Shown piece after piece: positions 12,041-21,722 of a stretch of 34,413 nt of DNA. The DNA comes from an uncultured Sandaracinus sp. (GTDB taxonomy: Bacteria; Myxococcota_A; Polyangia; Polyangiales; Sandaracinaceae), in assembly GCA_903828805.1 (NCBI GenBank), contig CAIKNO010000274.1, positions 1 to 34,413 on the forward strand, written 5' to 3'. The notes under the pieces are model-generated. The model made no database searches. It worked only from the letters and a program-made list of their open reading frames with translations, and was not told the origin of the DNA. A program made the position numbers and the translations under genes. Positions within the stretch are counted from its first letter, which is position 1, and every line of letters starts with the position of its first letter.

Positions 12041-14152
12041 ATGCGCGCCCTCGCCCTCGCCCTCGCGTTCTGTGCCTGCTCCCTCGCGTCGCCCGCCTCC
12101 GCGCAGGTGCGCCAACCCTCTCCCGTGGTGGAGCGGATCGAGCCGAGTTCGGGACCCCCCGGCACGTCGGTCGAGATGGTCGGCCGGTACTTCCGACCCG
12201 ACCAGAGCGTGCAGATCGGCGAGCAGGCCCTCGAGGTCGTTTCGCGCATGCCGAACCGGTGGACGGTCCGCGTGCCTGCGGGCACCCGCAGCGGGCGCGT
12301 CGTCGTGCGCGTCGAAGGGCTGCCGCCGATCGAGGGGCCCGAGTTCAGGGTGCTCGCCGCGCCCCCCGCGCCGGTCATCACCGACGTCCAGCCCCGCACC
12401 GCGGCCCCCGGAGCCGAGGTCCGGATCCTCGGAGAGAACTTCTCCCCTCGGCCCGCGGAGGACCTCGTCACGCTCGGCGCGGTGCCCGTCGTGGTCTCCC
12501 GCAGCAACCCCACCGAGCTCGTCGTGATCGTGCCGCAAGGCGCCCTCACGGGGCGCTTCTCGGTGCGGGTCGCGGGCTCCGGGGAGGCCACCGCGCCGGT
12601 GGATCTCACCCTCGGGGCGGGCTTGTCGGTGGCCACGTTCGTCCCGGCCGTCGGTCCGCCCTCGTCACGCGTGGAGCTGACGGGCGCCGGCTTCTCGACC
12701 CGCGCGACGGAGAACCGCGTGTTCCTCGGCCGCGCCCCGTGCAGGGTGCTCGCATCGACCGCGACGACGCTCTCCATCGAGGTGCCGGCGCAGGCCGCGA
12801 GCGGGGTGTTTCAGGTCGAGGTGCGAGGCGTGGGGCGCGTGTACTCGGCGGCGCCGTTCACCGTGCAGCCGATGCCGACGATCTCCGCGCTCGAGCCGAG
12901 CGCAGGCCCTCCCGGCGCCCAGTTCACGATCCGGGGCGCGCACTTCGGGGGTGACGTCCGGCTCGTGCAGGTCACGGTGGGCGGGGTCACCGCGACCGTG
13001 CGCGGTCTGCGCGAGGGCCGCGAGCTCGTCGTCGAGGTGCCCTCGACGGCCCAGACGGGTCCCGTCGAGGTGAGCGTGAACAGCGTCGGCCCGGCCCGCG
13101 CAGCGCAGGCCTTCACCGTCCTGGTGCCGCTCGGCGTGACGGGCTTCGCGCCCCGCAGCGGCGGCCCCGGCACCGAAGTGCTGCTCAGCGGTCAGGGCTT
13201 CTCGACGACGCTGACCGAGAACCGCGTGACGCTGTCCGGCGCACCATGCGAGGTCGTCTCCTCGACCCCGACCCAGCTGCGGGTCCGGGTGCCCCAGACG
13301 ACGAGCGGCCCCCTGCTCGTCGACGTCACGAACGCCGGCAGCGGACGCACGAGCCAGCCCTTCGTCGTGACCACCCCGCCGCGCGTGCAGTCGTTCGAGC
13401 CCACGCAGGGCGAACCCGGCTCCACCCTCACCCTCCGCGGAGAGGCCTTCGGCACCAACGCGTCGCTCCTCGAGGTGATGCTCGGCGACGCCCGCATGGA
13501 GGTCCGGAGCGCGAGCGAGCGCGAGATCGTCGCGGTCGTGCCCGCAGGCGCGACGAGCGCGCGCCTCCGCGTGACGGTGCGCCTCCAGGGGTCGTCGAGC
13601 CCCGAGGGTGAGTTCCTGGTCATCGGCCCCTTCGCCCTCACCGCCGTCGAGCCGGCCTCGACGTTCGCGGGGCAGTGGGTGACGCTCCGAGGGATCGGGT
13701 TCGGGACGCGTGCCGCCGTCCGGTTCAGCGGCGTCGAGGCACCGGTCACCACCGTGCGGACCGGACCGACGGAGCTGCGTGCCGTCGTCCCGACAGGGGC
13801 GGTCACGGGCCCCGTGACCGTGCGCAGCGAGGACGGCCGGGAGGTCTCGAGCGCGCTCGAACTCGTCCCGCCGCCGCCCGGGCTCGGCATCACGTCCGTC
13901 GAGCCCGTCTGCTTGCAGGGCGGGTGCGCGGTGGTGCTCCGCGGGCACGGCTTCGGCACCCGACCGAACCAGCAGACCGTGACGATCGGCACGGCGCGCG
14001 CGCGCGTCCGGAGGGCCACGCCGACCGCCCTCGAGTTCGACCTGCCGCGCACCCCCGGGACGATGACCATCCGCGTGGAGCGGAGCGGACGCGGCGGTGG
14101 TCGCGCCGAGACCGCGCCGCTCACCATCGAGGCGCCGACGCCGCCGCGGTGA
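12041..14152 (+). CDS. Secreted protein made of about eight tandem IPT/TIG domains
   Basis: Signal peptide MRALALALAFCACSLASPASAQ; eight units of about 80-90 aa with the pattern I..hxPxxGPPGxxVxhxGxxF...V.hG...hxVxxxxxxxLxxxVP. Confidence 0.9.
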   Translation: MRALALALAFCACSLASPASAQVRQPSPVVERIEPSSGPPGTSVEMVGRYFRPDQSVQIGEQALEVVSRMPNRWTVRVPAGTRSGRVVVRVEGLPPIEGPEFRVLAAPPAPVITDVQPRTAAPGAEVRILGENFSPRPAEDLVTLGAVPVVVSRSNPTELVVIVPQGALTGRFSVRVAGSGEATAPVDLTLGAGLSVATFVPAVGPPSSRVELTGAGFSTRATENRVFLGRAPCRVLASTATTLSIEVPAQAASGVFQVEVRGVGRVYSAAPFTVQPMPTISALEPSAGPPGAQFTIRGAHFGGDVRLVQVTVGGVTATVRGLREGRELVVEVPSTAQTGPVEVSVNSVGPARAAQAFTVLVPLGVTGFAPRSGGPGTEVLLSGQGFSTTLTENRVTLSGAPCEVVSSTPTQLRVRVPQTTSGPLLVDVTNAGSGRTSQPFVVTTPPRVQSFEPTQGEPGSTLTLRGEAFGTNASLLEVMLGDARMEVRSASEREIVAVVPAGATSARLRVTVRLQGSSSPEGEFLVIGPFALTAVEPASTFAGQWVTLRGIGFGTRAAVRFSGVEAPVTTVRTGPTELRAVVPTGAVTGPVTVRSEDGREVSSALELVPPPPGLGITSVEPVCLQGGCAVVLRGHGFGTRPNQQTVTIGTARARVRRATPTALEFDLPRTPGTMTIRVERSGRGGGRAETAPLTIEAPTPPR

Positions 14153-14310
14153 ACACGCCGCGGTGAACATGCCGCGGTGAACACGCCGCGATGAATACGC
14201 CGCGGTGAACACGCCGCGGTGAACACGCCGCGGTGAACCCGGCGCGCCGAACCCGGCGCGCTGAACACGCCTCGGTGAACACCGCGCGCCGAACCCGGCG
14301 CGCTTGACCC
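14143..14310. repeat. 14-bp tandem repeat, 12 gapless copies, consensus gccgcggtgaacac
   Basis: Direct reading: units start at 14143, 14157, 14171, 14185, 14199, 14213, 14227, 14241, 14255, 14269, 14283 and 14297. Copies 1-7 are near-perfect, 8-12 are diverged. Confidence 0.95.
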
Positions 14311-14315
14311 GACGA

Positions 14316-15620
14316 TCAGCGGGGCTCGGAGAGCAGCATCCCGGCCCCGACCGTCTGGTTCGTCGACTCGTCGACGAGCAGGAACGACCCGGTGGTGCGG
14401 TTGCGACGGTACTCGTCGTAGAACAGCGGCGCGGTCGTTCGCAGTTGCACCCGGCCGATGTCGTTCAGCCCGAACTGGGTCACGCCGTCCTCTCGGTGCA
14501 GCGTGTTCATGTCGAGCTTGTACTGGAGGTTCGTCACCATCGCGCGCACCCACCGCGTCGTGTGCTTGATCGCGAGGCGCGAGCGCGCGGTCAACGGCTG
14601 ATCCGACATCCAGCAGACCATCGCATCGAGGTCCTGCCCCACCATCGGCTTGTTCGCCGGGCGGCAGAGCATGTCGCCCCTCGAGACGTCCAGGTTGGTC
14701 TCGAGGTGGACCGTCACGCTGGCGGGCGCGAACGCCTCGTCGACCGGTCCATCGAAGGTGTCGATGCGGGCGATGCGGCTCGTGAAGCCGCTCGGCAGGG
14801 CCATCACCTCGTCGCCCTTCTTGAGGACGCCCCCCGCGACCTGCCCGGCGTAGCCGCGGTAGTCACGGTGCTCGGCGCTCTCGGACTGCGGCCGGATCAC
14901 CCACTGCACCGGGAAGCGCACGTCGATGAGGTTCCGGTCGGAGGCGATGTGCACCGTCTCGAGGTGGTGCAGCAGCGGCGAGCCCTTGTACCAGGGCATG
15001 TTCTCGCTGCGCTCGACGACGTTGTCGCCCTTGAGGGCGCTCACCGGGATGAACGCGATGTCCTGGACGTCGAGCTTGCTCGCGAAGTTGCGGAACTCGC
15101 TCTCGATCTCCCGGAAGCGCGCCTCGCGAAAGTCCACGAGGTCCATCTTGTTCACCGCGAACACGATGTGCGGAATCCGCAGCAGCGAGGCGATGAACGA
15201 GTGCCGCCGCGACTGCTCGACGAGCCCCTTGCGCGCGTCGACGAGCACGATGGCGAGGTTCGCGGTGCTCGCACCGGTCACCATGTTCCGGGTGTACTGG
15301 ATGTGCCCCGGCGTGTCGGCGATGATGAACTTCCGGCGGGGCGTCGCGAAGTAGCGGTACGCGACGTCGATGGTGATGCCCTGCTCGCGCTCGGCGCGGA
15401 GGCCATCGGTCAGCAGCGCGAGGTTCGTGTACTCGTCGCCGCGCCGCCGGGAGACGTCCTCGACGTGCTGGAGCTGGTCCTCGAAGATCGACTTCGTGTC
15501 GTAGAGCAGACGCCCGATGAGCGTGCTCTTCCCGTCGTCGACGCTGCCGCACGTCGAGAAGCGGAGGAGGTCCGCACCCTCCTCCATCGCCACCGGCTCA
15601 CGGACGTTCTGCGGCTCCAT
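14316..15620 (-). CDS. cysN: Sulfate adenylyltransferase subunit 1 (GTPase)
   Basis: FSTCGSVDDGKSTLIGRLLYDTK...AEREQGITIDVAYRYF...IIADTPGHIQYTRNMVTGAS...VNKMDLVDF. No fused APS kinase domain. Confidence 0.97.
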   Translation of the reverse strand: MEPQNVREPVAMEEGADLLRFSTCGSVDDGKSTLIGRLLYDTKSIFEDQLQHVEDVSRRRGDEYTNLALLTDGLRAEREQGITIDVAYRYFATPRRKFIIADTPGHIQYTRNMVTGASTANLAIVLVDARKGLVEQSRRHSFIASLLRIPHIVFAVNKMDLVDFREARFREIESEFRNFASKLDVQDIAFIPVSALKGDNVVERSENMPWYKGSPLLHHLETVHIASDRNLIDVRFPVQWVIRPQSESAEHRDYRGYAGQVAGGVLKKGDEVMALPSGFTSRIARIDTFDGPVDEAFAPASVTVHLETNLDVSRGDMLCRPANKPMVGQDLDAMVCWMSDQPLTARSRLAIKHTTRWVRAMVTNLQYKLDMNTLHREDGVTQFGLNDIGRVQLRTTAPLFYDEYRRNRTTGSFLLVDESTNQTVGAGMLLSEPR

Positions 15621-18420: not shown

Positions 18421-20637
18421 ATGCGTGCACCGCCCTGCTCCGCGTGGACCCTCGCGCTCTTCATCCTCGTACTCTCCATCGCCACGCGGCCGGCCCTCGT
18501 GCGCGCCGATCCGCCGCGCCTGCTCGCCCTGCCGCGGGGGGATGCAGCGCTGACCATCGACGGGGCGCTCGACGAGCCCGCGTGGGCCCAGGCCGAGCCC
18601 GGCACCGGCTTCGTGGAGCGAACGCCGCACCCGGGCGCAGCGCCGCCCGTGCCGACCTCGGTGCGCGTGCTCTACGACCACGGCGCGCTCTACGTCGGGG
18701 TCGAGCTCGGGCTCGCAGAGGGCGAGACCCCGAGGGCGCTGTGCATGACGCGCGACTCGGATGCCATCTGGAACGACGACGCCGTGAGCGTGAAGATCGA
18801 CGCGCGGCAGGACCACCGCACGACGCTGGGCTTCGTGGTGAGCGCGTCGGGCGCGCAGCTCGACTACCTCGTGCTCGACAACGGGCGCGCGTTTCGACGC
18901 GAGTTCGACATGGTGTGGGAGAGCGCGGTGCGGATCGAACGCACGCGCTGGACCGCGGAGTTCCGGATCCCCTCGACGGCCCTGGGCCTCAGCGCGGACG
19001 CCGGCGAGCGGGCCCTCGGGCTCAACGTGAGCCGCGACCACAATCGATTCGCCTCGACCTACGATTGGTCTCCGATGCCCCCCGAGTTCGGGCCCTTCTC
19101 GGCCTTGCACTACGGGGTCGTGGACGGCGTCCGCATCGGCGGCGGCGGCACGCCGGTCGCCGTGACGCCCTACTCGCTCGGCGAGCTCGTGGAGTCCGAG
19201 ACCACCGCCCCCACGGAGAGGCTGCGGGGACGCGCGGGCGGCGAGATCCTCGCCCGGCTCGACGCCGACGTCTGGGCGGAGGCGACGCTGCAGCCCGACT
19301 TCGCGCAGGTCGACCTCGACGACGCCCTCGTGAACCTCGATCGCTTCCCTCTTTTCTATCCCGAGCGAAGACCCTTCTTCCTGAACGGCCTCGACGCGTT
19401 CGACGCCGGCGTGCCCGAGACGCTCGTCCCGTTCTACTCGCGGCGCGTCGGCCTCGACGCACGCGGCCGCAGCGTGCCCGTCCTCGGCGGCGTGAAGCTC
19501 TACGGGCGGCAGGGGCCGTTGAGCTTCGGCGTCCTCGACGTGCTCACCGACGAGGCCGACGGACAGCCCGCCGCCAACGTCGTCGCGTCCCGGGCGCGGG
19601 TGGGACTCGGCTCGGGCGCGTCGTACGTCGGCGCGTTCCTCGTCTCGCGGCAGCCGTTCCGCTGGGACGGCTCGGCCCCTCAGGACGGGCAGGCGTTGCA
19701 TGCGACCGTGGGCGCCGATGGGCTCCTCCGGACCGCCGGAGACCGGCTCGAGATCTACGCGTTCGCCGCGGGCACGGCGCGGGACGGCGGCGAGGGCGCG
19801 GCCTCCGGCGAAGGCGTGGCGGCCGCCACGACGGCCCGGTGGCGGGGCCGCGAATGGCAGCCCTCGCTGACGGGGCTCTGGGTCGAGCGCAGCTTCGCCC
19901 CCGACGTGGGCTTCGCGCGACGCCCGGGCGCGGCGAGGCTCGCGCTCGAATCTCCGTTCGTCGCGCGCCCCTCGGGGGCCCTCCGCGCCCTCGTGCTCTC
20001 GCCCGGCGGCGAGGTGCAGGCCGACGACGGCCTCGATCAACTGCTCTTCTTGCGCGGCTCCCTCACCGCGTCCGTGGAAGGCACGGGGGGCTGGTTCGCC
20101 TCGTTCGTCGGGCGCTACGTCGAGGACACCGTCGCCCAGGACTTCGAGGTCGTGCCCGGCGTGACGGCGCTCGCCGGCACGTACCGCGGCGTGCAGATCG
20201 ACGTGCTCGCGGCCACGCCGACCGCATGGAACCCCACCCTCTCGGTCAGCTACCGGGTCAGCAACGCGTACTTCGGAGGCTTGCTGCACAACCCCTACGC
20301 CCGCTTCGTGGCGAACCTCGGCGCGTGGGTGTTCCTCGACCTGCGCGCGGACGTCTACCGGGTCGAGCTCCGACAAGTCCCGGCGTTCTGGACGTACGGC
20401 CTCAACGCGCTCGTGCGCGTGACCCCGACGACCGCCGTGCAGGTCGATCTCGTCGGGCGCCTCGACGGCGAGAACCGTCGCGCCGTGGGCATGGCCCGGC
20501 TTCGCTATCGGTACGCGCCCGGCAGCGACTTCTTCCTCGTGTGGCGCACCGACGCAGCGTACCCCGACGGAATGCCGACCTCGTTCTCGCATCAGCTGAC
20601 GCTGAAGATGTCGGCCCGCTTCGACCTGCGGCTCTGA
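18421..20637 (+). CDS. DUF5916 / CBM9-like domain protein, predicted outer-membrane beta-barrel
   Basis: Signal peptide; N-terminal CBM9-like region (LTIDGALDEPAWAQAEP...VRVLYDHGALYVGVEL...WNDDAVSVKID); PDFAQVDLDDALVNLDRFPLFYPERRPFFLNG. Confidence 0.85.
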   Translation: MRAPPCSAWTLALFILVLSIATRPALVRADPPRLLALPRGDAALTIDGALDEPAWAQAEPGTGFVERTPHPGAAPPVPTSVRVLYDHGALYVGVELGLAEGETPRALCMTRDSDAIWNDDAVSVKIDARQDHRTTLGFVVSASGAQLDYLVLDNGRAFRREFDMVWESAVRIERTRWTAEFRIPSTALGLSADAGERALGLNVSRDHNRFASTYDWSPMPPEFGPFSALHYGVVDGVRIGGGGTPVAVTPYSLGELVESETTAPTERLRGRAGGEILARLDADVWAEATLQPDFAQVDLDDALVNLDRFPLFYPERRPFFLNGLDAFDAGVPETLVPFYSRRVGLDARGRSVPVLGGVKLYGRQGPLSFGVLDVLTDEADGQPAANVVASRARVGLGSGASYVGAFLVSRQPFRWDGSAPQDGQALHATVGADGLLRTAGDRLEIYAFAAGTARDGGEGAASGEGVAAATTARWRGREWQPSLTGLWVERSFAPDVGFARRPGAARLALESPFVARPSGALRALVLSPGGEVQADDGLDQLLFLRGSLTASVEGTGGWFASFVGRYVEDTVAQDFEVVPGVTALAGTYRGVQIDVLAATPTAWNPTLSVSYRVSNAYFGGLLHNPYARFVANLGAWVFLDLRADVYRVELRQVPAFWTYGLNALVRVTPTTAVQVDLVGRLDGENRRAVGMARLRYRYAPGSDFFLVWRTDAAYPDGMPTSFSHQLTLKMSARFDLRL

Positions 20638-20671: not shown

Positions 20672-20731
20672 ACGAGCGGCGCCACGATCGGCGGCCCGAG
20701 CGACGGCACGAGCGGCGGCACGAGCGGCGGC
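20672..20731. repeat. 12-bp tandem repeat, 5 copies, consensus acgagcggcggc
   Basis: acgagcggcgcc / acgatcggcggc / ccgagcgacggc / acgagcggcggc / acgagcggcggc, then partial acgaaccc. Lies between convergent genes. Confidence 0.85.
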
Positions 20732-20759
20732 ACGAACCCGCGCCGCACAGCGCACGCCG

Positions 20760-21722
20760 TCAATGGTCGAGGCGCCCGATCGAGGCGAGGTAGGCCCGCG
20801 CGAGGTCGTAGTTGTCGTGCTGGTCGGGATGGAAGTTCGGCCGCAGGTAATCGACGAACGCCCCGCGGAGCAGCGCCCGGCGACGCGCGCCCTCGGCGAT
20901 GAGCTTCGGGTCCGAACCCGCCGCCCGGGCGGCCGCCCGCAAATCGGTGCCGCGCGCCCGCTCCTGGGCCAGCAGATCCCTGGATGCGATGGCCCAGAAC
21001 GTCATGAGGCCGAGCGTGGCCAGCAGCATCCCCGACACGCGCAAGGACCAGCGCGGGTCCACCTTCCGGAGCACGTCGAAGGCGACCGACTTGTGCTCGA
21101 TCTCCTCGGCCGCATGCCACTTGAGCAGGTCGCGCAGCACGGGGTGCGCGCTGTCCATGACGTCGGAGCGCAGGCCGTTGTCGGCGAGGGTCGCCGTGTA
21201 GTGCTCGAGGGCCGCCGTGATGCTCAAGCGCAGGGCGGGCGACACCCGCGGCTCGCACACCTCGAACGCCCAGTGCTTGTACGAGGTCAGGAAGCGCGCG
21301 ACCTCGTAGCCCTGCGCCTCGAGGATGCGGTTGAACCGCTCGTGCTCGTGGCCGTGACGCCCCTCCTGTCCGAAGAACGCGCGGGCGCGGGCGGCCAGCT
21401 CGGGGTCGTCCCCGAGCTGGTCGAGGTAGTGCTTCACGCTGCGGATGAAGAAGCGCTCGCCCTCGGGGAAGAGGAGGTTCAGACCGTTGGCCACGTGCGT
21501 CGCGACGGCGTTGCCGTGGAACCAGGCGCGCGGGATGGAGGCGTCGAACGGGAAGCCCATCGCCCGGACCGGGATCGGCCGGGACGTCGCGCGACGGGCA
21601 CCGCGGGGCGAGGCGCCCGTCCGCTCGCTTTGCACGCCGGCCTCGGCGCCCGCATCGCCACGTGCTGCGGGTCGACCGAATCCGCCTTCGCCGACCTGCT
21701 CCGCCACCGCCATCGTGGTCAT
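20760..21722 (-). CDS. Predicted metal-dependent hydrolase (PF10118-like)
   Basis: ARAFFGQEGRHGHEHERFN, LKWHAAEEIEHKSVAFDVL; His/Glu-rich helical motifs. Start uncertain (M at 21722 or 21713). Confidence 0.8.
   Translation of the reverse strand: MTTMAVAEQVGEGGFGRPAARGDAGAEAGVQSERTGASPRGARRATSRPIPVRAMGFPFDASIPRAWFHGNAVATHVANGLNLLFPEGERFFIRSVKHYLDQLGDDPELAARARAFFGQEGRHGHEHERFNRILEAQGYEVARFLTSYKHWAFEVCEPRVSPALRLSITAALEHYTATLADNGLRSDVMDSAHPVLRDLLKWHAAEEIEHKSVAFDVLRKVDPRWSLRVSGMLLATLGLMTFWAIASRDLLAQERARGTDLRAAARAAGSDPKLIAEGARRRALLRGAFVDYLRPNFHPDQHDNYDLARAYLASIGRLDH

Follow-up and report, generated by a model that had tools for sequence, protein, structure and literature searches.

The window analysed here, a stretch of 34,413 nucleotides, is contig C274 of a genome of 6.03 Mb in 815 contigs, and within it two genes converge on a short, highly repetitive gap. 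On the plus strand lies a gene for a secreted-looking multi-IPT/TIG-domain protein (12041–14152), defined by a gene call and by seven stretches matching the Pfam TIG family (E 2.5e-77). It faces a cysN-like gene on the minus strand (14316–15620), encoding the large subunit of a sulfate adenylyltransferase, with matches to GTP_EFTU and GTP-eEF1A_C, and 89% identical relatives in the genus; this gene in turn adjoins one of the PAPS-reductase family. The domain matches, seven TIG domains on one side and on the other the GTPase and C-terminal domains typical of CysN, show both flanking genes to be real.

The gap between them is filled by twelve 14-mers (14143–14310) running head to tail without indels over 168 bp, with the consensus GCCGCGGTGAACAC. 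A unit table drawn up from the sequence gave the same coordinates and the same gapless copies as a preliminary description of this DNA. The TRF score of the array is 205, far beyond chance, given that 40 first-order resamplings of the window scored at most 80, and the number of matches to the consensus in units 1 to 12 is 14, 13, 14, 12, 14, 14, 13, 10, 12, 13, 9 and 9, respectively. Unit 1 contains the TGA at 14150–14152 (plus strand), which both translation and gene call identify as the codon that ends the TIG-domain ORF. The earlier statement that the array starts at the upstream stop codon therefore holds in so far as the first unit supplies this TGA, but the true 5′ edge is 7 bp upstream of it; the 3′ edge lies 5 bp short of the cysN stop, as had been described. 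Apart from the last codons and stop of the TIG gene, the array is outside genes, as expected of an intergenic minisatellite, and its 14-bp unit, repeated 12 times in an array that exceeds chance, falls in the 10–100 bp range of head-to-tail units by which minisatellites are recognised. The array is real, and very probably an ordinary intergenic minisatellite, of the VNTR type, in a Sandaracinus-like myxobacterial genome of 72% GC.

Internally, the array is made up of two blocks. Units 1–7 (14143–14240) are near-identical, with 0–3 differences between any two in the unit distance matrix, and are built around a CCGCGG core (units 1–3 and 5–7; CCGCGA in unit 4), while units 8–12 (14241–14310) are mostly diverged, with cores of the GGCGCGC type (units 8, 9 and 12; CGCGCGC in unit 11), a distribution already recognised in the preliminary description. 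Of the two, the homogeneous 5′ block appears to be the younger. A single position separates units 8 and 11, and TRF additionally gives a 42-bp period for the array, which together suggest that a later, longer secondary duplication probably enlarged the 3′ block. The drifted units 8, 9, 11 and 12 have in common a paired C2G/G7C change that preserves the palindrome, and this pair probably represents a single event copied by descent or duplication. Upstream of unit 1 no seed copy is recognisable, the preceding 14 bp matching the consensus at 7 of 14 positions.

The 14-mer is confined to this junction as an array. The preliminary description had proposed looking for it at other gene ends, and a search of the same genome returned no second array of the unit, only scattered single 14-mers with one mismatch. 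A scan of the species collection, which possibly did not cover the array's own genome, likewise gave no exact double unit. Nor does the array appear at the 3′ ends of the TIG orthologues in G001, G002, G004 and G008; in the first of these, the orthologue is about 490 kb away from cysN. A search of the genome collection for TIG relatives by name yielded only one distant Nitrospira protein. As the array is unique in the genome and absent from the orthologous positions, it is local to the TIG–cysN junction of its own genome.

These distributions bear on the proposal that the array is recognised by a DNA-binding protein, in the manner of iterons or parS sites. Regular spacing and palindromic cores are what such a site would offer, and the preliminary description had considered a protein-binding array. 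Against this, the unit forms no other array in the genome beyond one-mismatch single near-matches, the exact double unit is missing from the collection as scanned, the 14-mer is not conserved in relatives, and the neighbours scanned (TIG, cysN, PAPS reductase, ruvA/B and thymidylate kinase) included no replication-origin or partition gene. The binding-site reading consequently has next to no probability, and a minisatellite remains the preferred interpretation.

The nearest relatives, G001 and G002, have genomes of 10.3 and 10.8 Mb and a CysN that is 89% identical, and in both a different gene stands opposite cysN, with a single long hairpin at the junction. In both congeners this is a near-perfect, terminator-like hairpin between cysN and the different convergent gene, at about 1430–1490 of the extracted loci (L009 and L010). 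One rival reading is that the array replaces this single hairpin, its serial GC hairpins terminating transcription in both directions. Pairing would occur between neighbouring units, as CGCCGCGGUG-AACA-CGCCGCGGUG on the TIG transcript and GCGCGCCG-GGUU-CGGCGCGC just after cysN, with predicted two-unit hairpins of −16.6 to −18.1 kcal/mol. In favour of this idea, the congeners' hairpin at this junction is strong, the plus strand of the array folds with a z of −6.7 relative to dinucleotide shuffles and the TIG–cysN junction itself has a hairpin z of −2.5; in the genus (G000, G001 and G002), hairpins better than shuffles (z<−2) occur at 14, 27 and 53% of convergent junctions, respectively, versus 9, 2 and 3% of divergent ones.

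A control that retains the tandem layout is stricter. Against arrays with permuted columns, the plus strand is marginal (z −1.67, with 26 of 400 folding at least as well) and the minus strand shows no excess (z 0.44, 262 of 400); even relative to dinucleotide shuffles the minus strand is hardly better (z −1.8). Neither a T tract nor a terminator consensus was found in 13500–15000, and the compensatory change of the drifted units, if it arose once and spread by duplication as seems probable, lends the hairpins little. The plus-strand folding edge or the palindrome-keeping C2G/G7C change could hint at selection for structure. Selected RNA structure was considered as an explanation in its own right and set aside, being only marginal against the permuted-column arrays, and no Rfam match at the gathering score was obtained anywhere in the window. 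A terminator that replaces the congeners' hairpin is thus unlikely, and a terminator-like effect of the array, judged from these folding models, is possible but weakly supported, as is the transcription insulator of the preliminary description. A broader version, in which convergent gene ends across the family would recurrently turn single-hairpin terminators into length-variable, stop-seeded arrays of serial hairpins, with termination strength tunable by copy number, is very unlikely.

The minisatellite reading gains from a view of the family as a whole. Five genomes of the family (that of the array, two congeners and two of other genera) were scanned without bias over about 1.84 Mb. This recovered 79 noncoding arrays; their units are unrelated and their periods range from 8 to 99 bp. 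One further example lies in the window itself, where 5.3 copies of a 12-bp unit (ACGAGCGGCGGC; 20672–20735, identified by TRF and gene calls) sit between the convergent genes at 18421–20637 (plus) and 20760–21722 (minus). Array density per kb of intergenic DNA in the scan was 0.80 at convergent, 0.51 at tandem and 0.19 at divergent junctions. Genes were called for this purpose by a home-made method based on codon usage; it recovers those genes of the window that Pfam supports, but single placements may be wrong. The convergent density is about 4 times the divergent (p about 1e-4), and does not differ significantly from the tandem (p 0.10). A period of 14 as a special length could be ruled out, since it is found in 2 of the 79 arrays.

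The position of these arrays relative to genes was compared with random sliding of each array inside its own gap. Array edges near stop codons numbered 24, versus 21.3 expected, which rules out stop-codon seeding as an enriched phenomenon, and edges near start codons numbered 2, versus 9.4 expected, with a value as low in 1 of 500 simulations. Contact with a stop codon therefore needs no special seeding, and what stands out is that arrays are kept away from gene starts. This placement pattern fits relaxed constraint at gene 3′ ends. The many stop overlaps among the contigs of G003 that were examined first reflect their selection by TGA pattern: these picks (L114–L125) are rich in 11–16 bp arrays in which the first unit contains the gene's stop, and the overlap is much rarer in unselected contigs. 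Elsewhere in G003 (contig C19, L017 1437–1480), the 3′ end of the gene convergent to cysN is formed by a 20-bp tandem duplication (TCCGTAGCCTGACGGAGTAG × 2.2), in which the stop codon of that gene is included. Arrays of the 7-bp unit TGAGCAG were also seen in contigs C20, C61 and C63 of G032, with those of C20 and C61 at contig ends. A narrow literature search for intergenic tandem repeats at stop codons in myxobacteria found no paper.

In the TIG–cysN array, the first 38 nt already hold a TGA in each of the three plus-strand frames, and the frame check thus confirmed what was first described. It could be taken to mean that the repeated TGA is selected as a series of back-up stops, catching translational read-through of the TIG gene. 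The same outcome is automatic, however, when a unit that includes a stop is duplicated with a period not divisible by three, and this accounts for the presence of TGA in the majority of units and in each of the three frames. Moreover, the minus strand provides cysN with no stops, arrays genome-wide overlap stops no more often than random sliding would give, and the sampled arrays suggest that stop-free units are equally common beside gene ends. Selection for back-up stops is accordingly extremely unlikely. The minus strand of the array has zero stops in any frame, and a translation insulator acting in both directions between the convergent genes, as the preliminary description had suggested, is therefore excluded, failing for the cysN direction.

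Evidence for change in copy number comes from comparable arrays in relatives. A pattern of TGA every 14 bp, five times over, matches in 11 of 38 related genomes, including that of the TIG–cysN array, with unrelated units, and G003 has about nine such arrays. G014 belongs to another family of the order and has the same cysN end on two contigs, with flanks that are roughly 90% similar. From the cysN stop onwards, each contig has an array of a 14-mer other than that of the TIG–cysN array, with 7 units in one (C133, L088) and 4 in the other (C935, L113). The two contigs probably represent two strains that were merged into one assembly. In G014, the final 14 nt of cysN match the array unit at 11 of 14 positions, so that seeding from a gene end is visible in this case. 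G014 provides direct evidence that arrays of this kind change copy number, and the TIG–cysN array may be expected to do so by analogy.

Taken together, these results favour a simple history. A piece of the TIG gene's 3′ end may have been duplicated in tandem, through slippage or unequal exchange, and then expanded. Such an array would be tolerated at a convergent junction because no promoter lies there, and because the protein stays the same as long as the duplication retains the first stop. An expansion seeded from the gene's 3′ end, as the preliminary description proposed, is possible on these grounds, but contact with stops is near the random expectation across the family and no seed copy can be seen at the locus. 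Among the functions and classes first put forward, a hypervariable minisatellite is the best reading by analogy, given that the class is common in these genomes and that the comparable 14-bp array exists with 4 and 7 units. The TIG–cysN array would, like that array, be variable, and we infer that it has no dedicated function.

On its own, the TIG–cysN locus carries little weight, though it could be used as a marker for typing strains. Of modest value is the wider pattern, in which the family commonly has short minisatellites of unrelated units between its genes, and these avoid gene starts, not stops. It also brings a caution, in that a stop codon inside an array is poor ground for inferring function.

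Compared with the single-hairpin terminators of the congeners, the array occupies the same place at the end of cysN and has a similarly strong GC hairpin potential. The congeners have one long stem, whereas the array offers many short alternative stems, which are mostly expected of any GC-rich tandem unit. The closer likeness is to bacterial minisatellites and VNTR loci, which share with the array head-to-tail units of about 10–100 bp, an intergenic position, and a mixture of near-identical and drifted copies; this likeness extends to copy-number variation only through the comparable array in the relative G014, and thus by analogy. Among the systems compared, the closest published parallel is the Mycobacterium tuberculosis MIRU-VNTR locus VNTR3239 (ETR-F), in the rnc–fpg1 gap, where the array varies between strains and the gap is a few bp in most other species (PMC2734929). 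Both are tandem arrays that fill an intergenic gap. Their units are unrelated, with MIRUs of 40–100 bp, and 55 and 79 bp in VNTR3239, versus 14 bp in the TIG–cysN array. They also differ in setting: the TIG–cysN array is placed between two 3′ ends, and VNTR3239 upstream of a gene, with a length that tracks expression.
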